Assembly (NCBI GenBank): GCA_016873165.1
Contig: VGXV01000017.1
Location: 1-64,000 of the forward strand
Length of the DNA: 64,000 nt
Direction: 5' to 3'
DNA from: Planctomycetota bacterium
GTDB lineage: Bacteria > Planctomycetota > Brocadiia > Brocadiales > Brocadiaceae
Below, piece by piece: positions 9,629-51,186 of the stretch. The position numbers and the translations under genes are program-made. The first letter of the stretch is position 1. Each line of letters opens with the position of its first letter. The notes beneath the pieces were generated by a model. It was not told the DNA's origin and made no database searches. It was given only the letters and a program-made list of their open reading frames with translations.

Positions 9629-11302
9629 ATGATTTGCAGAACAGGTATGGCAAAGGCAGTTTGTTTTATTTTCTTCATGGGATTGGTACTGTTGGGAACA
9701 GGATGCGCGGATTTGGAGGGATTACGCAAAGAAAATCAGGCGCTTACGGAAAAAGTTTCTTTGTTGCAGCAGCACACGGAAGAATTGATGCAGCGCTACC
9801 CTGCGGAGGAAAAACCCGTTCCGATAATTATTACTCCACAGAATAAAACATGTGTTGCATGCCATAAGATTAACTCTTCTGCACTCGTTATGGAGTGGGA
9901 GAGGTCGCGGCATGCCCAAAACGGAATAGGGTGTGTGGATTGTCACGAGGCGGAACAGGGAGAGATTGATGCGTGGAAACATATGGGATTTTACATTTCA
10001 ACATTGGTGACGCCGAAAGATTGTTCCCGTTGTCACGGAAAAGAGCATGAGGAGTTTTCGAAAAGTCATCACGCAAAAGCGGGGGAAATACTTGCAAGCC
10101 TTGATAACGTGCTTGCGGAAAAGGTTATCGGAATGCCAGCCAATAATGCTGATGCGGTGAACGGCTGCTGGCAGTGTCACGGCAGTATTATAAAGTTTAA
10201 GCGCGATGAGAAAAACAATATCGTAAGGAACGGAAATGAGGGAAAGCCTGTTATAGACCCTGATACATGGCCGAACAGCGGCATGGGACGATTGAATCCT
10301 GACGGTTCAAAAGGCGCCTGCCATGCATGCCATTCACGACATTCGTTTGAGGCGAAATTGTCCCGCGCTCCGGAAAATTGCGGAAAATGCCACTTGGGAC
10401 CTGACCACCCTCAGTTGGAGGTTTATGAAGAGTCAAAACACGGCATAGCCTTTGCCGCTAACATTGATAAGATGGCGCTGGATAAGGAAGGTGACTGGGT
10501 TTTGGGAAAAGATTATTCTGCCGCGCCAACATGCGCTACGTGTCATATAAGCAGTTACATGACCCCTCAGGGGATTTATAAGGCAAATAGCCATGACGTC
10601 GGCGAACGCATTAGCTGGACGCTTCGTCCTGTAGTGAGTACCAGGATAAGCCTTGTAATATATGAAGACGGATATAAGGAAGACTATCCCGAAACGAAGG
10701 CTTTGCCTAAGATAGGCGAGGAAGTACAGACTGTTGAAAATGTGATACAGAATGAAGTATTGGTAAAGCAGACGGTTGCAAGACGCGTTGCGAATGTAAT
10801 TACCTGGGAGGAACGGCGTGAAAAAATGAAGGGTGTCTGCAGAAATTGCCACAATGAAACCCATATTGATAATTTTTATAGGCAATTTGACAGCCTTGTG
10901 GAACTCTACAATGATAAATTCGCAAAACCGGCACAGGCATTAATGAAGGAACTTGTCGCTGACGGGGCGCTTAATCCCAATTCGCCGTTTGAGCATGACG
11001 TGCAGTGGGTGTTCTGGGAATTATGGCATCATGAAGGCAGAAGGGCGAGGCATGGAGCCAGCATGATGGGACCCGACTATTCACATTGGCATGGTATGTA
11101 TGAAGTGGCGAAACATTTTTACATGAAATTTTTGCCCGCAGTGGTGAAAGCCGCAGCGCAAAAGGATAGCGCTACGAAGGAAAAGTATGAGAAAAAAATC
11201 GAACAATTGCTCATGCAGGATGAACATCTATGGGTGAAGGGACTCTCTCCCGAAGAAATCAAGGTTTTAAAAGCAGGGTATAAAGAACGGTATAATGAGT
11301 GA
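9629..11302 (+). CDS. octaheme c-type cytochrome, HAO-like lipoprotein
   Basis: About 557 aa from the ATG at 9629, chosen over the GTG at 9611 because AAAGGGGGGG falls just before it. The signal peptide ends in a lipobox (LLGTGC), so it should be a lipid-anchored protein, and a short coiled coil (LRKENQALTEKVSLLQQHTEEL) follows. It has exactly eight CxxCH sites (CVACH, CVDCH, CSRCH, CWQCH, CHACH, CGKCH, CATCH, CRNCH), in hydroxylamine oxidoreductase order. The C-terminal helical region contains HGASMMGPDYSHWHG, with a Tyr in the region of HAO's heme-crosslinking Tyr. About 60 residues rich in acidic/Val residues are inserted before heme 8. Oxidative or reductive N-oxide chemistry cannot be decided without alignment. 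Confidence 0.88.
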   Translation: MICRTGMAKAVCFIFFMGLVLLGTGCADLEGLRKENQALTEKVSLLQQHTEELMQRYPAEEKPVPIIITPQNKTCVACHKINSSALVMEWERSRHAQNGIGCVDCHEAEQGEIDAWKHMGFYISTLVTPKDCSRCHGKEHEEFSKSHHAKAGEILASLDNVLAEKVIGMPANNADAVNGCWQCHGSIIKFKRDEKNNIVRNGNEGKPVIDPDTWPNSGMGRLNPDGSKGACHACHSRHSFEAKLSRAPENCGKCHLGPDHPQLEVYEESKHGIAFAANIDKMALDKEGDWVLGKDYSAAPTCATCHISSYMTPQGIYKANSHDVGERISWTLRPVVSTRISLVIYEDGYKEDYPETKALPKIGEEVQTVENVIQNEVLVKQTVARRVANVITWEERREKMKGVCRNCHNETHIDNFYRQFDSLVELYNDKFAKPAQALMKELVADGALNPNSPFEHDVQWVFWELWHHEGRRARHGASMMGPDYSHWHGMYEVAKHFYMKFLPAVVKAAAQKDSATKEKYEKKIEQLLMQDEHLWVKGLSPEEIKVLKAGYKERYNE

Positions 11303-47623: not shown

Positions 47624-47897
47624 CCCTTAGATTTTTGTGTGTATTAAGGTGGTTACTTTGGGGTGAAAATTCTAGCCTTTTTAATAAACACCGTAAATTC
47701 CACATTATTATATCTGATGTTGTAACGAAATGTTAGTTATGAATTACAGAGTTTTTTAGTGCGTAGTATCCCCCACTAATACTAGTTGCGGTCTTGATAA
47801 AGCTAAGCAACCTTCGTCATGATTACTATCGTCATTTAGGCGCTAATTATTTTTTATAAAAGCAGCAGATTTCATTAAACATATTTAGGAGGTATCT

Positions 47898-49109
47898 ATG
47901 GAGCGGTTGAAGCAGTTGTTAGAGTTTATTCAGCGAAGAAAAAAACTGGTAGGCTTCTTCACCATAATTGTTCTTGTTATTTTGCTTGTTACGGTAAATA
48001 AAGTATACCATTATTCGGAAAAAAGCGAGTTTTGCGCCAGTTGCCATGAGATGGATATACATTATACATCATTTCTGGAATCCAAACACAATAATGAACA
48101 CGTTGAACATTGCCATGCTTGTCACGTAGGCCCCGGACTTAAAGGGTACGCCCACGCGAAGCTGAGTGACGGAACACATGACTCTTTAATGCATTCGTTC
48201 CAGGCGTTTTCCGACGGTTCGCTCATTGAAATTGCCGAGGACAGTATAATAACTATAAATGGCAATTGCGCGCGTTGCCACGCAGAAGGTTTTACGAAAG
48301 ATAAAACTCACGTAGAGTTCGTTTCAAAGAGCAACAAACATAGCACGGATGGTAGGGCTCTTGAAAAATTAATGTGCACCGATTGCCATCTGGGCGTTGC
48401 TCATCCGCATATGCCCGGAGATCTTTACGAACTTTACGCGGAGAAAAAGGTAAAACCCTATGGTAAATACAAAGAAACCGATTGTTTTGCGTGCCATAAA
48501 ATTGCAACCCCTGAAGTTGTAAAGCAGTGGACAGGAAGCCCGCATGCAGAAAAAGGAGTAACCTGTATCAGTTGTCACGGCGATGATCATGGACATATCG
48601 CTGAGAAACATGGCCATGTATCGGCGACCACATGCGGTGAATGCCACCAGGCGCAGTTCCTTGATTTCCGTGAAAGCGCCCACTTGCAGGGACATCCGGT
48701 TGCATTTGACAATACCTACGATGTGATCAGCACAAGAAAACTCACCATGGAAGGTTGCAGAGACTGCCATAAAATGGGATTGGAATATGAAGACCGGGTT
48801 GGAGGAAGCTGCAATGCCTGTCATGGAAGCCATAAATTCTCAACTGCGGAAGCAAAGGCATATGATGCTTGCGAAAAGTGCCACATTGGAGGCCCTGAAC
48901 ATTCACAGCTTGATACAAGTGAAAATTCCATTTTCGGAAAAGTGCTAAAGATGCGCAGCCAGGGATTAATCACCAACGATCTGGTAAAATGCCAGACGTG
49001 TCACGGACCTAACAAATCGCACAATTTTAATAAAGTATCCATTCCTCAGGAAGTAGATGTGCTGCTTTTCGGAGGTCATGGATTGGTAAAATTACCGGAA
49101 AACCATTAA
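47898..49109 (+). CDS. 11-heme NapC/NirT-HAO-like fused cytochrome
   Basis: 403 aa with eleven CxxCH motifs (Cys at about 46, 72, 124, 160, 196, 223, 246, 287, 305, 325, 365). One membrane anchor (LVGFFTIIVLVILLVTV) precedes a tetraheme NapC/NirT/NrfH-like module whose first heme is CASCHEM. From residue 190 on, seven hemes align in order with hemes 1-7 of the octaheme HAO-like protein at 9.6 kb (CFACHKI...HAEKGVTCISCHGD; CNACHGSHKF...CEKCHIGGPEHSQL). HAO heme 8 and its C-terminal helical domain are absent. Likely a quinol-linked electron conduit. TTTAGGAGGTATCT precedes the ATG; a terminator follows. Confidence 0.85.
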   Translation: MERLKQLLEFIQRRKKLVGFFTIIVLVILLVTVNKVYHYSEKSEFCASCHEMDIHYTSFLESKHNNEHVEHCHACHVGPGLKGYAHAKLSDGTHDSLMHSFQAFSDGSLIEIAEDSIITINGNCARCHAEGFTKDKTHVEFVSKSNKHSTDGRALEKLMCTDCHLGVAHPHMPGDLYELYAEKKVKPYGKYKETDCFACHKIATPEVVKQWTGSPHAEKGVTCISCHGDDHGHIAEKHGHVSATTCGECHQAQFLDFRESAHLQGHPVAFDNTYDVISTRKLTMEGCRDCHKMGLEYEDRVGGSCNACHGSHKFSTAEAKAYDACEKCHIGGPEHSQLDTSENSIFGKVLKMRSQGLITNDLVKCQTCHGPNKSHNFNKVSIPQEVDVLLFGGHGLVKLPENH

Positions 49110-49146: not shown

Positions 49147-49181
49147 AAAAAATCCCACCCTTATATGGTGGGATTTTTTTT
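49147..49181 (+). terminator. intrinsic terminator
   Basis: AAAATCCCACC-CTTATAT-GGTGGGATTTTTTTT, stem of 11 bp and eight T. Ends the 11-heme transcript; the aconitase needs its own promoter. Confidence 0.92.
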
Positions 49182-49260: not shown

Positions 49261-51186
49261 ATGGGAAAAAATATTGTTCAAAAGATTTTAAGTTCACACC
49301 TTGTTTCCGGTCGGTTAAAAACGAAAACCGAAATTGCCATTTCAATTGATCAAACCCTTACGCAGGACGCAACAGGCACAATGGCTTACTTGCAATTTGA
49401 GGCTATGGGGATACCGAAAGTGAGAACAAAACTCTCCGTCAGTTACGTTGATCATAATATGCTGCAGACCGGATTCGAGAACTTCGACGACCATTTGTTT
49501 TTACAAAGTTTCGCCAATAAATATGGCATATATTTTTCCAAACCGGGAAACGGCATTTGTCATCAGGTGCACCTCGAACGTTTTGCCGTGCCGGGAGGAA
49601 CGCTGCTGGGTTCCGATAGCCATACACCTACGTGCGGCGGGCTTGGAATGCTTTCCATCGGAGCAGGGGGGCTTGATGTGGCAATTGCAATGGCAGGAGG
49701 GCCGTTTCATTTTTCCATGCCGGAAATTGTATTAGTAAAACTCTCAGGCGCACTATCCTCATGGGTCACGGCAAAAGACATAATTCTTGAATTATTAAGA
49801 AGATTGACCGTGAAAGGTGGCGTGGGAAAAATCTTCGAATATGGCGGAGAAGGAGTGAAAACACTTACCGTCACGGAACGTTCTACCATTACCAATATGG
49901 GCGCGGAACTCGGCGCGCTCACCTCAATCTTTCCGAGCGATGCGCAAACCAGAAAATACTTAAAGATGCAGGGTCGTGAAGAAGCATGGCAACCTTTAAA
50001 AGCCAGCGCAACCGCGCAATACGACGAAGTGGTTGAAATTGATCTTTCTGCCCTGGAACCGATGGTGGCGCGGCCACACAGCCCGGATAATGTATGCAAA
50101 GTGAGTGAAATCAAAGGAACAAAGGTGCATCAGGTTTGCATAGGCAGTTGCACAAATTCATCGTATCACGATCTTATGATGGCAGCGGCAATGTTGAAAG
50201 GAAAAAAGGTTCATCCTGATGTCAGCCTCACCATCTCTCCGGGATCTCGGCAGGTGCTTGAAATGATTACGAAAAACGGGGCATTGTCAGATATCATCGC
50301 TGCGGGAGGCAGATTACTGGATGTTGCCTGCGGTCCCTGTATCGGAATGGGCCAGGCACCGCCTTCCGGCGGTATTTCCGTCCGGACATTTAACAGAAAC
50401 TTTGAGGGAAGAAGCGGAACGAACGACGCAAAAGTCTATTTGGCAAGCCCGGAAACTGCAGTTATTACCGCAATAAGAGGTGTGATCAGCGATCCCGGGG
50501 ATTATGGGACACCTATTGCCATTAAAGAACCGAAATCTTTTCTAATAGATGACACCATGATAATTCCCCCTTCTGAAAATCCGGAACAGGTGACAATAAT
50601 CAGAGGCCCTAACATCAAACCTTTACCGAAAAAAGAACCGATGCCGGATACATTAAAAGGCGATGTCCTTTTAAAAACCGGAGACAATATTACCACAGAT
50701 CATATTATGCCGGCGGGAGCCAAGGTTTTGCCGTTAAGGTCAAATATTCCCGCTATTTCCGAATTTGTGTTTGAAAAAGTCGATAAAGAGTTTGCAAAGC
50801 GGGCAAAGGAAAAAGGCGGAGGTTTTTTGATCGGGGGAATAAATTACGGGCAGGGATCAAGCAGGGAACATGCGGCGCTTGCCCCGATGTATCTGGGCGT
50901 TAAAGCGGTTATTACAAAATCTTTTGCACGCATACACCGGGCAAATCTTGTCAATTTTGGCATACTCCCGCTCACCTTCAAAGATGAAAAAGATTATACC
51001 CTTCTGGACCAGGGAGATAGTTTAGAATTGGCAAATATTAAGAGTAAATTAAAACCCGGAAGCGTACACGTTATCCGCAATATAACAAAAAACAAGGAAT
51101 TCAAAGTAACGCACACGTTATCGTCACGCGAGATAGATATCCTTTGCGCAGGGGGTCTGTTAAATTACCAGGCACAGTGCAAATAA
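49261..51186 (+). CDS. acn: aconitate hydratase (canonical copy)
   Basis: 641 aa. All three 4Fe-4S ligands are present: Cys297 in VCIGSCTNSSYHD and Cys357/Cys360 in ACGPCIGMGQAP. Other active-site parts: DSHTPTCG, FNRNFEGRSG and YGQGSSREHA. Interconverts citrate and isocitrate in the TCA/reverse branch. Homologous along its full length to the variant at 33400. GGAGGCAGAAAC Shine-Dalgarno. psd begins 22 nt later. Confidence 0.94.
   Translation: MGKNIVQKILSSHLVSGRLKTKTEIAISIDQTLTQDATGTMAYLQFEAMGIPKVRTKLSVSYVDHNMLQTGFENFDDHLFLQSFANKYGIYFSKPGNGICHQVHLERFAVPGGTLLGSDSHTPTCGGLGMLSIGAGGLDVAIAMAGGPFHFSMPEIVLVKLSGALSSWVTAKDIILELLRRLTVKGGVGKIFEYGGEGVKTLTVTERSTITNMGAELGALTSIFPSDAQTRKYLKMQGREEAWQPLKASATAQYDEVVEIDLSALEPMVARPHSPDNVCKVSEIKGTKVHQVCIGSCTNSSYHDLMMAAAMLKGKKVHPDVSLTISPGSRQVLEMITKNGALSDIIAAGGRLLDVACGPCIGMGQAPPSGGISVRTFNRNFEGRSGTNDAKVYLASPETAVITAIRGVISDPGDYGTPIAIKEPKSFLIDDTMIIPPSENPEQVTIIRGPNIKPLPKKEPMPDTLKGDVLLKTGDNITTDHIMPAGAKVLPLRSNIPAISEFVFEKVDKEFAKRAKEKGGGFLIGGINYGQGSSREHAALAPMYLGVKAVITKSFARIHRANLVNFGILPLTFKDEKDYTLLDQGDSLELANIKSKLKPGSVHVIRNITKNKEFKVTHTLSSREIDILCAGGLLNYQAQCK

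Follow-up and report, generated by a model that had tools for sequence, protein, structure and literature searches.

The gene at 47898..49109 (+) of the window, the 64,000-nucleotide stretch of DNA analyzed here, encodes an 11-heme cytochrome of 403 amino acids in which a NapC/NrfH-type tetraheme module is fused to an HAO-like heptaheme module. Orthologs of this fusion are present in 53 of the 59 Brocadiales genomes sampled (the window's genome and others of the order). The component families are known, and their covalent union appears to be undescribed as far as the literature searched shows. That literature, which takes in neither the reviews by Kartal/Keltjens nor the complexome study of anammox bacteria, gave no description of a NapC-HAO fusion and no 11-heme family of characterized function, in keeping with the first-pass annotation, to which a covalent fusion of this shape was unfamiliar. 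The near-universal occurrence in anammox bacteria, the gene's frequent position next to HDH and a probable earlier detection by proteomics go beyond that annotation. Its position next to HDH makes the fusion a candidate for the step that carries electrons from hydrazine into the membrane.

The gene and its tetraheme module

The CxxCH motifs begin at residues 46, 72, 124, 160, 196, 223, 246, 287, 305, 325, and 365, and they contain all 22 cysteines of the protein. Shuffling the protein 2000 times gave a mean of 0.10 motifs and a maximum of 2, compared with the 11 observed, which bears out the eleven sites first read in this ORF. A ribosome-binding site, AGGAGG, was read directly from the sequence at 47887..47892 (+). 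Comparisons with two other Kuenenia genomes gave dN values of 0.06–0.08 and dS values of 1.0–1.8, and the gene is under strong purifying selection. This selection, the Shine-Dalgarno site, and the full-length orthologs indicate that the gene is real. A terminator-like hairpin at 49147..49179 (+), statistically weak as one match against a shuffle mean of 1.6, suggests that its transcription unit is separate from the aconitase gene (49261..51186, +), which is kept as the downstream neighbor in families f1, f2, and f3.

Residues 1–178 (47898..48431, +) are the NapC/NrfH-type quinone-reactive module and show the NapC/NirT layout, with a single membrane-spanning anchor at the N-terminus ahead of four CxxCH motifs. 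The single transmembrane helix, at approximately residues 16–36 (47943..48005, +), follows a basic stretch; the hydropathy peak (2.45) is at residues 18–36 and the predicted structure has a helix at residues 15–40. By the positive-inside rule the hemes would be on the far side of the membrane, which in anammox bacteria is presumably the anammoxosome lumen. The protein scores 54.3 bits against Pfam Cytochrom_NNT (PF03264), passing the gathering cut-off of 24.1, and 78.9 bits against the NCBIfam NrfH equivalog model, below the cut-off of 134.2. The profile search of the N-terminal part against NapC/NirT proteins that the first-pass annotation had proposed was run with 29 orthologs; it placed Desulfovibrio NrfH 2j7a first among PDB entries (E 2.7e-9), all others having E values of at least 0.29. 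Together with a Foldseek probability of 1.0 for NrfH chains, these matches uphold the initial placement of hemes 1–4 behind a membrane anchor in NapC/NrfH fashion.

Heme 1 (48033..48053, +) has the motif CASCHEM, which is the NrfH-type CxxCHxM, and its candidate Met ligand, M52, aligns with NrfH Met49, which we take to be the heme-1 ligand. K88 and D95 (48159..48182, +) are the counterparts, in the alignment with 2j7a, of NrfH Lys82 and Asp89, presumably the quinol site. All three residues are invariant in 29 of 29 orthologs. Hemes 2–4 are at C72, C124, and C160 (48111..48389, +). Because the quinone-site residues of NrfH are kept, the fusion is predicted to exchange electrons with a quinone, the likely partner being menaquinone. 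Family f2 fusions (L041, L045, L046, L047, L050, and L066) have a CX3CH heme 1 (CGKMCH, CGTLCH, or similar), counted in all six f2 members aligned.

The HAO-like heptaheme module

Residues 186–380 (48453..49037, +) correspond to the part of HAO that carries hemes 1–7, as seen by BLASTP, MAFFT, profile, tree, and Foldseek analyses. Hemes 5–11 are at C196, C223, C246, C287, C305, C325, and C365 (48483..49004, +), with six conserved histidines outside the CxxCH motifs among them (216, 231, 262, 312, 335, and 375). Heme 8 (C287-H291; 48756..48770, +) corresponds by alignment position to heme 4 of HAO, at which catalysis takes place in that enzyme (PMC8388095). The correspondence of hemes 5–11, in order and spacing, to hemes 1–7 of the octaheme protein at 9.6 kb of the window had been noticed before and is reproduced here. 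Octaheme P0002 and the fusion share 29% identity across residues 196–347 in BLASTP, and in the MAFFT alignment the fusion shares all seven CxxCH columns, and five columns of His outside these motifs, with HOX, HDH, and IhOCC-like octahemes.

The octaheme protein itself (9629-11302, +) has a lipoprotein-like N-terminus and finds its best match in Ignicoccus IhOCC (4qo5, E 2.8e-49), its match to catalytic HAO being weaker (E 1.6e-13). This qualifies its earlier description as HAO-like: its nearest relative is IhOCC and not catalytic HAO. A second similar-looking octaheme is encoded in the same genome (L210:5191-6669), where its gene is grouped with one for a tetraheme protein and with two others.

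A profile search of the C-terminal part, which had been suggested against HAO, gave HAO, HDH, or IhOCC as all of the best eight PDB entries, with E values from 1.6e-20 (the HAO-like 6t5e) to 1.3e-10; KsHAO 4n4j, HDH 6hif, 6h5l, NeHAO, 6m0p, and IhOCC are among the matches. The first entry outside this group is MccSep (E 1.5e-4). Pfam c554 (PF13435) matches one stretch only, residues 183–228, at 21.6 bits against a cut-off of 20.8. An MtrC/MtrF Pfam domain match (51.7 bits, residues 43–203) and a DmsE decaheme NCBIfam match (48 bits, cut-off 192) were rejected, as neither the PDB profiles nor Foldseek supported them.

The structure prediction called for at the outset was run as a model without hemes. 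The AlphaFold2 model used, from an alignment of 90 sequences that included HAO relatives, has a pLDDT of 78.9 and a pTM of 0.69; an earlier model from 29 orthologs without HAO relatives (pLDDT 55.6) was set aside. With the former, Foldseek gave a probability of 1.0 for HAO/HDH chains and NrfH chains only, and no MtrC/MtrA-type fold match for the fusion. The assignment of the C-terminus to HAO rather than to another NapC/MtrC-type family therefore held up. Query-normalized TM-scores are low (0.24–0.34), since no single match extends over the whole chain, and the structures superpose only roughly (rmsd 5–7 Å).

In the alignment with HAO-family proteins the fusion has counterparts of HAO hemes 1–7 only, so that HAO heme 8 is absent. 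The chain ends approximately 34 residues past heme 11, the equivalent of HAO heme 7, and the C-terminal helical domain, in which the crosslink Tyr of HAO is located, is absent as well. Both absences had been read from the sequence at first pass. Because only hemes 1–7 are present, the fusion is not classified as an HAO.

Distribution, origin, and gene neighborhood

The survey across the Brocadiales that the first-pass annotation had envisaged included named records from the Brocadiaceae (Kuenenia, Brocadia, Jettenia, and Loosdrechtia), Scalindua, groundwater Planctomycetota lineages, and Anammoxibacter. Two of the 53 fusions were counted as split fragments (G025 and G051), and orthologs in the aligned set are 41–87% identical. 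No fusion was found in the remaining six of the 59 genomes: G008, G009, and G056, which are 79–85% complete, G022, a draft despite its rating of 99% complete, and the two Anammoxibacter genomes (G036 and G039; 93% complete), though HZS and HDH are present in the latter two. Anammoxibacter encodes a different NapC-headed protein with 13 CxxCH motifs (L204:4450-6192(-), L205:3095-5008(-), and L206:4805-6604(+)), which in L206 adjoins a 16-heme protein with apparent transmembrane segments. In seven family f2 genomes of 1.5–2.2 Mb the fusion is the only NapC/NirT-family match.

A scan of 84,980 species, keyed on two conserved peptides and hence liable to miss strongly divergent fusions, found no full-length fusion outside the Brocadiales. 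Among 392 Planctomycetota genomes sampled, those outside the Brocadiales gave only C-terminal-module matches. Candidate fusions in other Planctomycetota and bacteria were rejected, as the matches span only approximately residues 187–377 and represent octahemes or similar proteins. A truncated Scalindua-like copy on a 3.7-kb contig labeled Alphaproteobacteria (L115) is most likely misbinned.

The C-terminal modules of the fusions form one clade (support 100/100), distinct from HOX, HDH, and every octaheme sampled. On the basis of the tree, the idea that the C-terminus was captured recently from HOX or HDH was rejected, and this single separate clade indicates that the fusion is one old graft.

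Within the window the fusion gene is solitary and is followed by aconitase. Elsewhere the locus reads, with small variations, hzsC-hzsB-hzsA-HOX-trpB-trpA-HDH-TPR-TPR-(FGE-sulfatase-like, reverse)-fusion-aconitase, and the order HZS-HOX-trpB-trpA-HDH is common to three families. In many lineages HZS, HOX, and HDH are in one locus broken by trpB-trpA (L148:1306-19901; also L150, L154, L155, L156, and L158). The conserved divergent neighbor of the fusion is a zinc-ribbon/TPR/FGE-sulfatase-domain protein (L148:14994-16586, -). With HDH identified by its match to PDB 6hif (1257 bits) and HOX by 6t5e/4n4j, HDH was placed 4.0–7.8 kb upstream of the fusion, on its strand, in 20 genomes from three families (G005, G007, G014, G015, G020, G021, G023, G024, G025, G027, G028, G029, G031, G035, G042, G043, G044, G046, G049, and G051); neighborhoods inherited by descent do not count as independent events. 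Since reverse-strand genes stand between, the linkage is not an operon. It does not hold in Kuenenia, G010, or G012, and HDH was not found beside the fusion in G033 and G040. The hzsA gene is within 20 kb of the fusion in 12 genomes; in the complete 4.4-Mb Kuenenia genome (G001) it is still upstream, at a distance of approximately 8 kb, and the intervening genes are mobile-element-like. The window's own assembly (G000, rated 100% complete) yielded no hydrazine synthase alpha gene. Biological loss was set aside, as hzs is multicopy in relatives and an assembly gap is the probable cause.

The protein has probably been detected by proteomics already, under a plain family name. KsCSTR_12840 of K. 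stuttgartiensis, a “NapC/NirT family cytochrome c”, is relatively abundant and is upregulated with HZS, HDH, and HOX (PMC10006275). It is probably the fusion ortholog: its locus tag comes after that of hzsA, KsCSTR_12690 (PMC12053348), which agrees with the gene order in G001, and a single strong NapC/NirT match was obtained in that genome.

Electron flow and relation to known systems

Nitrifiers link HAO to quinone through the NapC-family cytochrome cM552, for which the anammox counterpart has been described as “an as yet unidentified cytochrome c” (PMC3701875). A c554 homolog is absent from K. stuttgartiensis (PMC8388095), and hydrazine's low-potential electrons are said to pass from HDH into the membrane chain “in a yet to be discovered manner” (PMC12607021, 2025). 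We propose, with confidence and doubt evenly balanced, that the fusion is a membrane-anchored, single-chain HURM-like module linking the HDH/HOX heme pool to menaquinone and probably reducing the quinone. The NrfH/NapC unit would exchange electrons with menaquinone at heme 1, and the fused seven-heme relay would extend the wire into the compartment where HDH and HOX release electrons. The flow would run from hydrazine to HDH, by direct contact or a small cytochrome c to hemes 11 to 5, and through hemes 4 to 1 to menaquinone. The fusion would then work like the HAO-c554-cM552 system (HURM) of nitrifiers, with shuttle and quinone reductase in one polypeptide. This route is favored because the nearest conserved catalytic gene is HDH and because a NapC-family cytochrome serves this step in nitrifiers, the anammox equivalent being unassigned (PMC3701875). 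The “membrane-bound electron conduit” of the first-pass annotation is supported in its anatomy. More tentatively, the fusion may be the missing hydrazine:menaquinone link, possibly with an open heme 8 that would also turn over N-oxides.

Several observations count against passage from HDH to menaquinone. The HDH linkage is neither an operon nor universal, NapC/NrfH proteins are usually quinol oxidizers rather than quinone reducers, and Anammoxibacter has a different, 13-heme NapC-headed protein; as it has HZS and HDH without the fusion, the role must be replaceable. Flow in the opposite direction, in which a menaquinol dehydrogenase feeds hydrazine synthase or an HAO-like nitrite reductase of the kustc0458 type, is a serious rival, if in our estimate a rather unlikely one. 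Quinol oxidation is normal for the NapC/NrfH family, the 12 genomes with hzsA nearby fit such a role, K. stuttgartiensis retains hzsA but not HDH near the fusion, and a role with HZS has been put forward for the KsCSTR_12840 protein (PMC10006275). However, HZS already has its own proposed quinol-side electron-transfer module, kuste2854-2856 (PMC12053348), and Anammoxibacter, where the fusion is missing, has multiheme counterparts of it next to hzs; for both reasons HDH/HOX are more likely than HZS to be the partners of the fusion. HDH, its nearest conserved catalytic neighbor, is moreover an electron producer.

HAO relatives without the Tyr crosslink have been proposed to be nitrite reducers with NapC partners (PMC3701875), and the fusion could itself be a catalytic enzyme, a self-contained quinol:N-oxide (nitrite, NO, hydroxylamine) reductase or fused “reverse-HURM” with a five-coordinate heme 8. 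One or more hemes may be open, since six conserved non-CxxCH histidines serve seven HAO-type hemes. H335 is invariant and lines up with the DH pair that comes after heme 6 of HAO, a position that we take to be the HAO active-site pair. The acidic residue preceding H335 is, however, poorly conserved, and the C-terminal helical domain is gone together with the position of the crosslink Tyr, which makes catalysis possible but less likely than a relay, and on balance improbable. Least probable is that the fusion is a quinol dehydrogenase of the CymA kind, passing electrons out of the cell to Fe/Mn oxides or electrodes. Extracellular electron transfer by anammox bacteria has been studied (PMC7188810), and Fe2O3 and MnO2 were accompanied by higher levels of what is probably the K. 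stuttgartiensis protein (PMC10006275). That response is not specific, because HZS, HDH, and HOX increased along with it; the fusion also occurs in almost all lineages, including those with small genomes, and in the loci examined it is linked to core HZS/HOX/HDH genes and not to porin-cytochrome genes.

With transfer from HDH/HOX to menaquinone as the preferred reading, a conserved gene with both required modules beside HDH in three families reduces the electron-exit question to one named protein. The fusion is also a clear example of multiheme protein evolution through module joining. It resembles NrfH, NapC, and cM552 (PF03264) in its N-terminal anchor, four hemes, CxxCHxM heme 1, and quinol-site Lys and Asp, with sequence and fold matches to its N-terminus, but its chain runs on with seven more hemes. 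In order, spacing, and conserved His, hemes 5–11 agree with hemes 1–7 of HAO, HDH, and the octaheme cytochromes (PF13447); unlike these, the fusion is without heme 8 and the helical domain, its active-site acid is poorly conserved, and its module is in a clade separate from HOX and HDH. TorC-type fusions likewise lengthen a NapC module in-chain, and TorC models match the N-terminus weakly, but TorC is a pentaheme with one extra heme and no relation to HAO. The kuste2854-2856 module of HZS also belongs to the hzs locus and has likewise been proposed to handle electrons in connection with quinol; it consists of a heme-b membrane module and a separate triheme protein instead of a NapC-HAO fusion (PMC12053348), and has counterparts in Anammoxibacter, where the fusion is absent. 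The nitrifier HURM (HAO + c554 + cM552) similarly combines an HAO-superfamily multiheme protein with a NapC-family quinone module, and in anammox bacteria the fusion gene is linked to that of an HAO-family dehydrogenase (HDH, 20 genomes). In contrast to HURM, the fusion, for which we infer quinone reduction, has relay and quinone module in one polypeptide.
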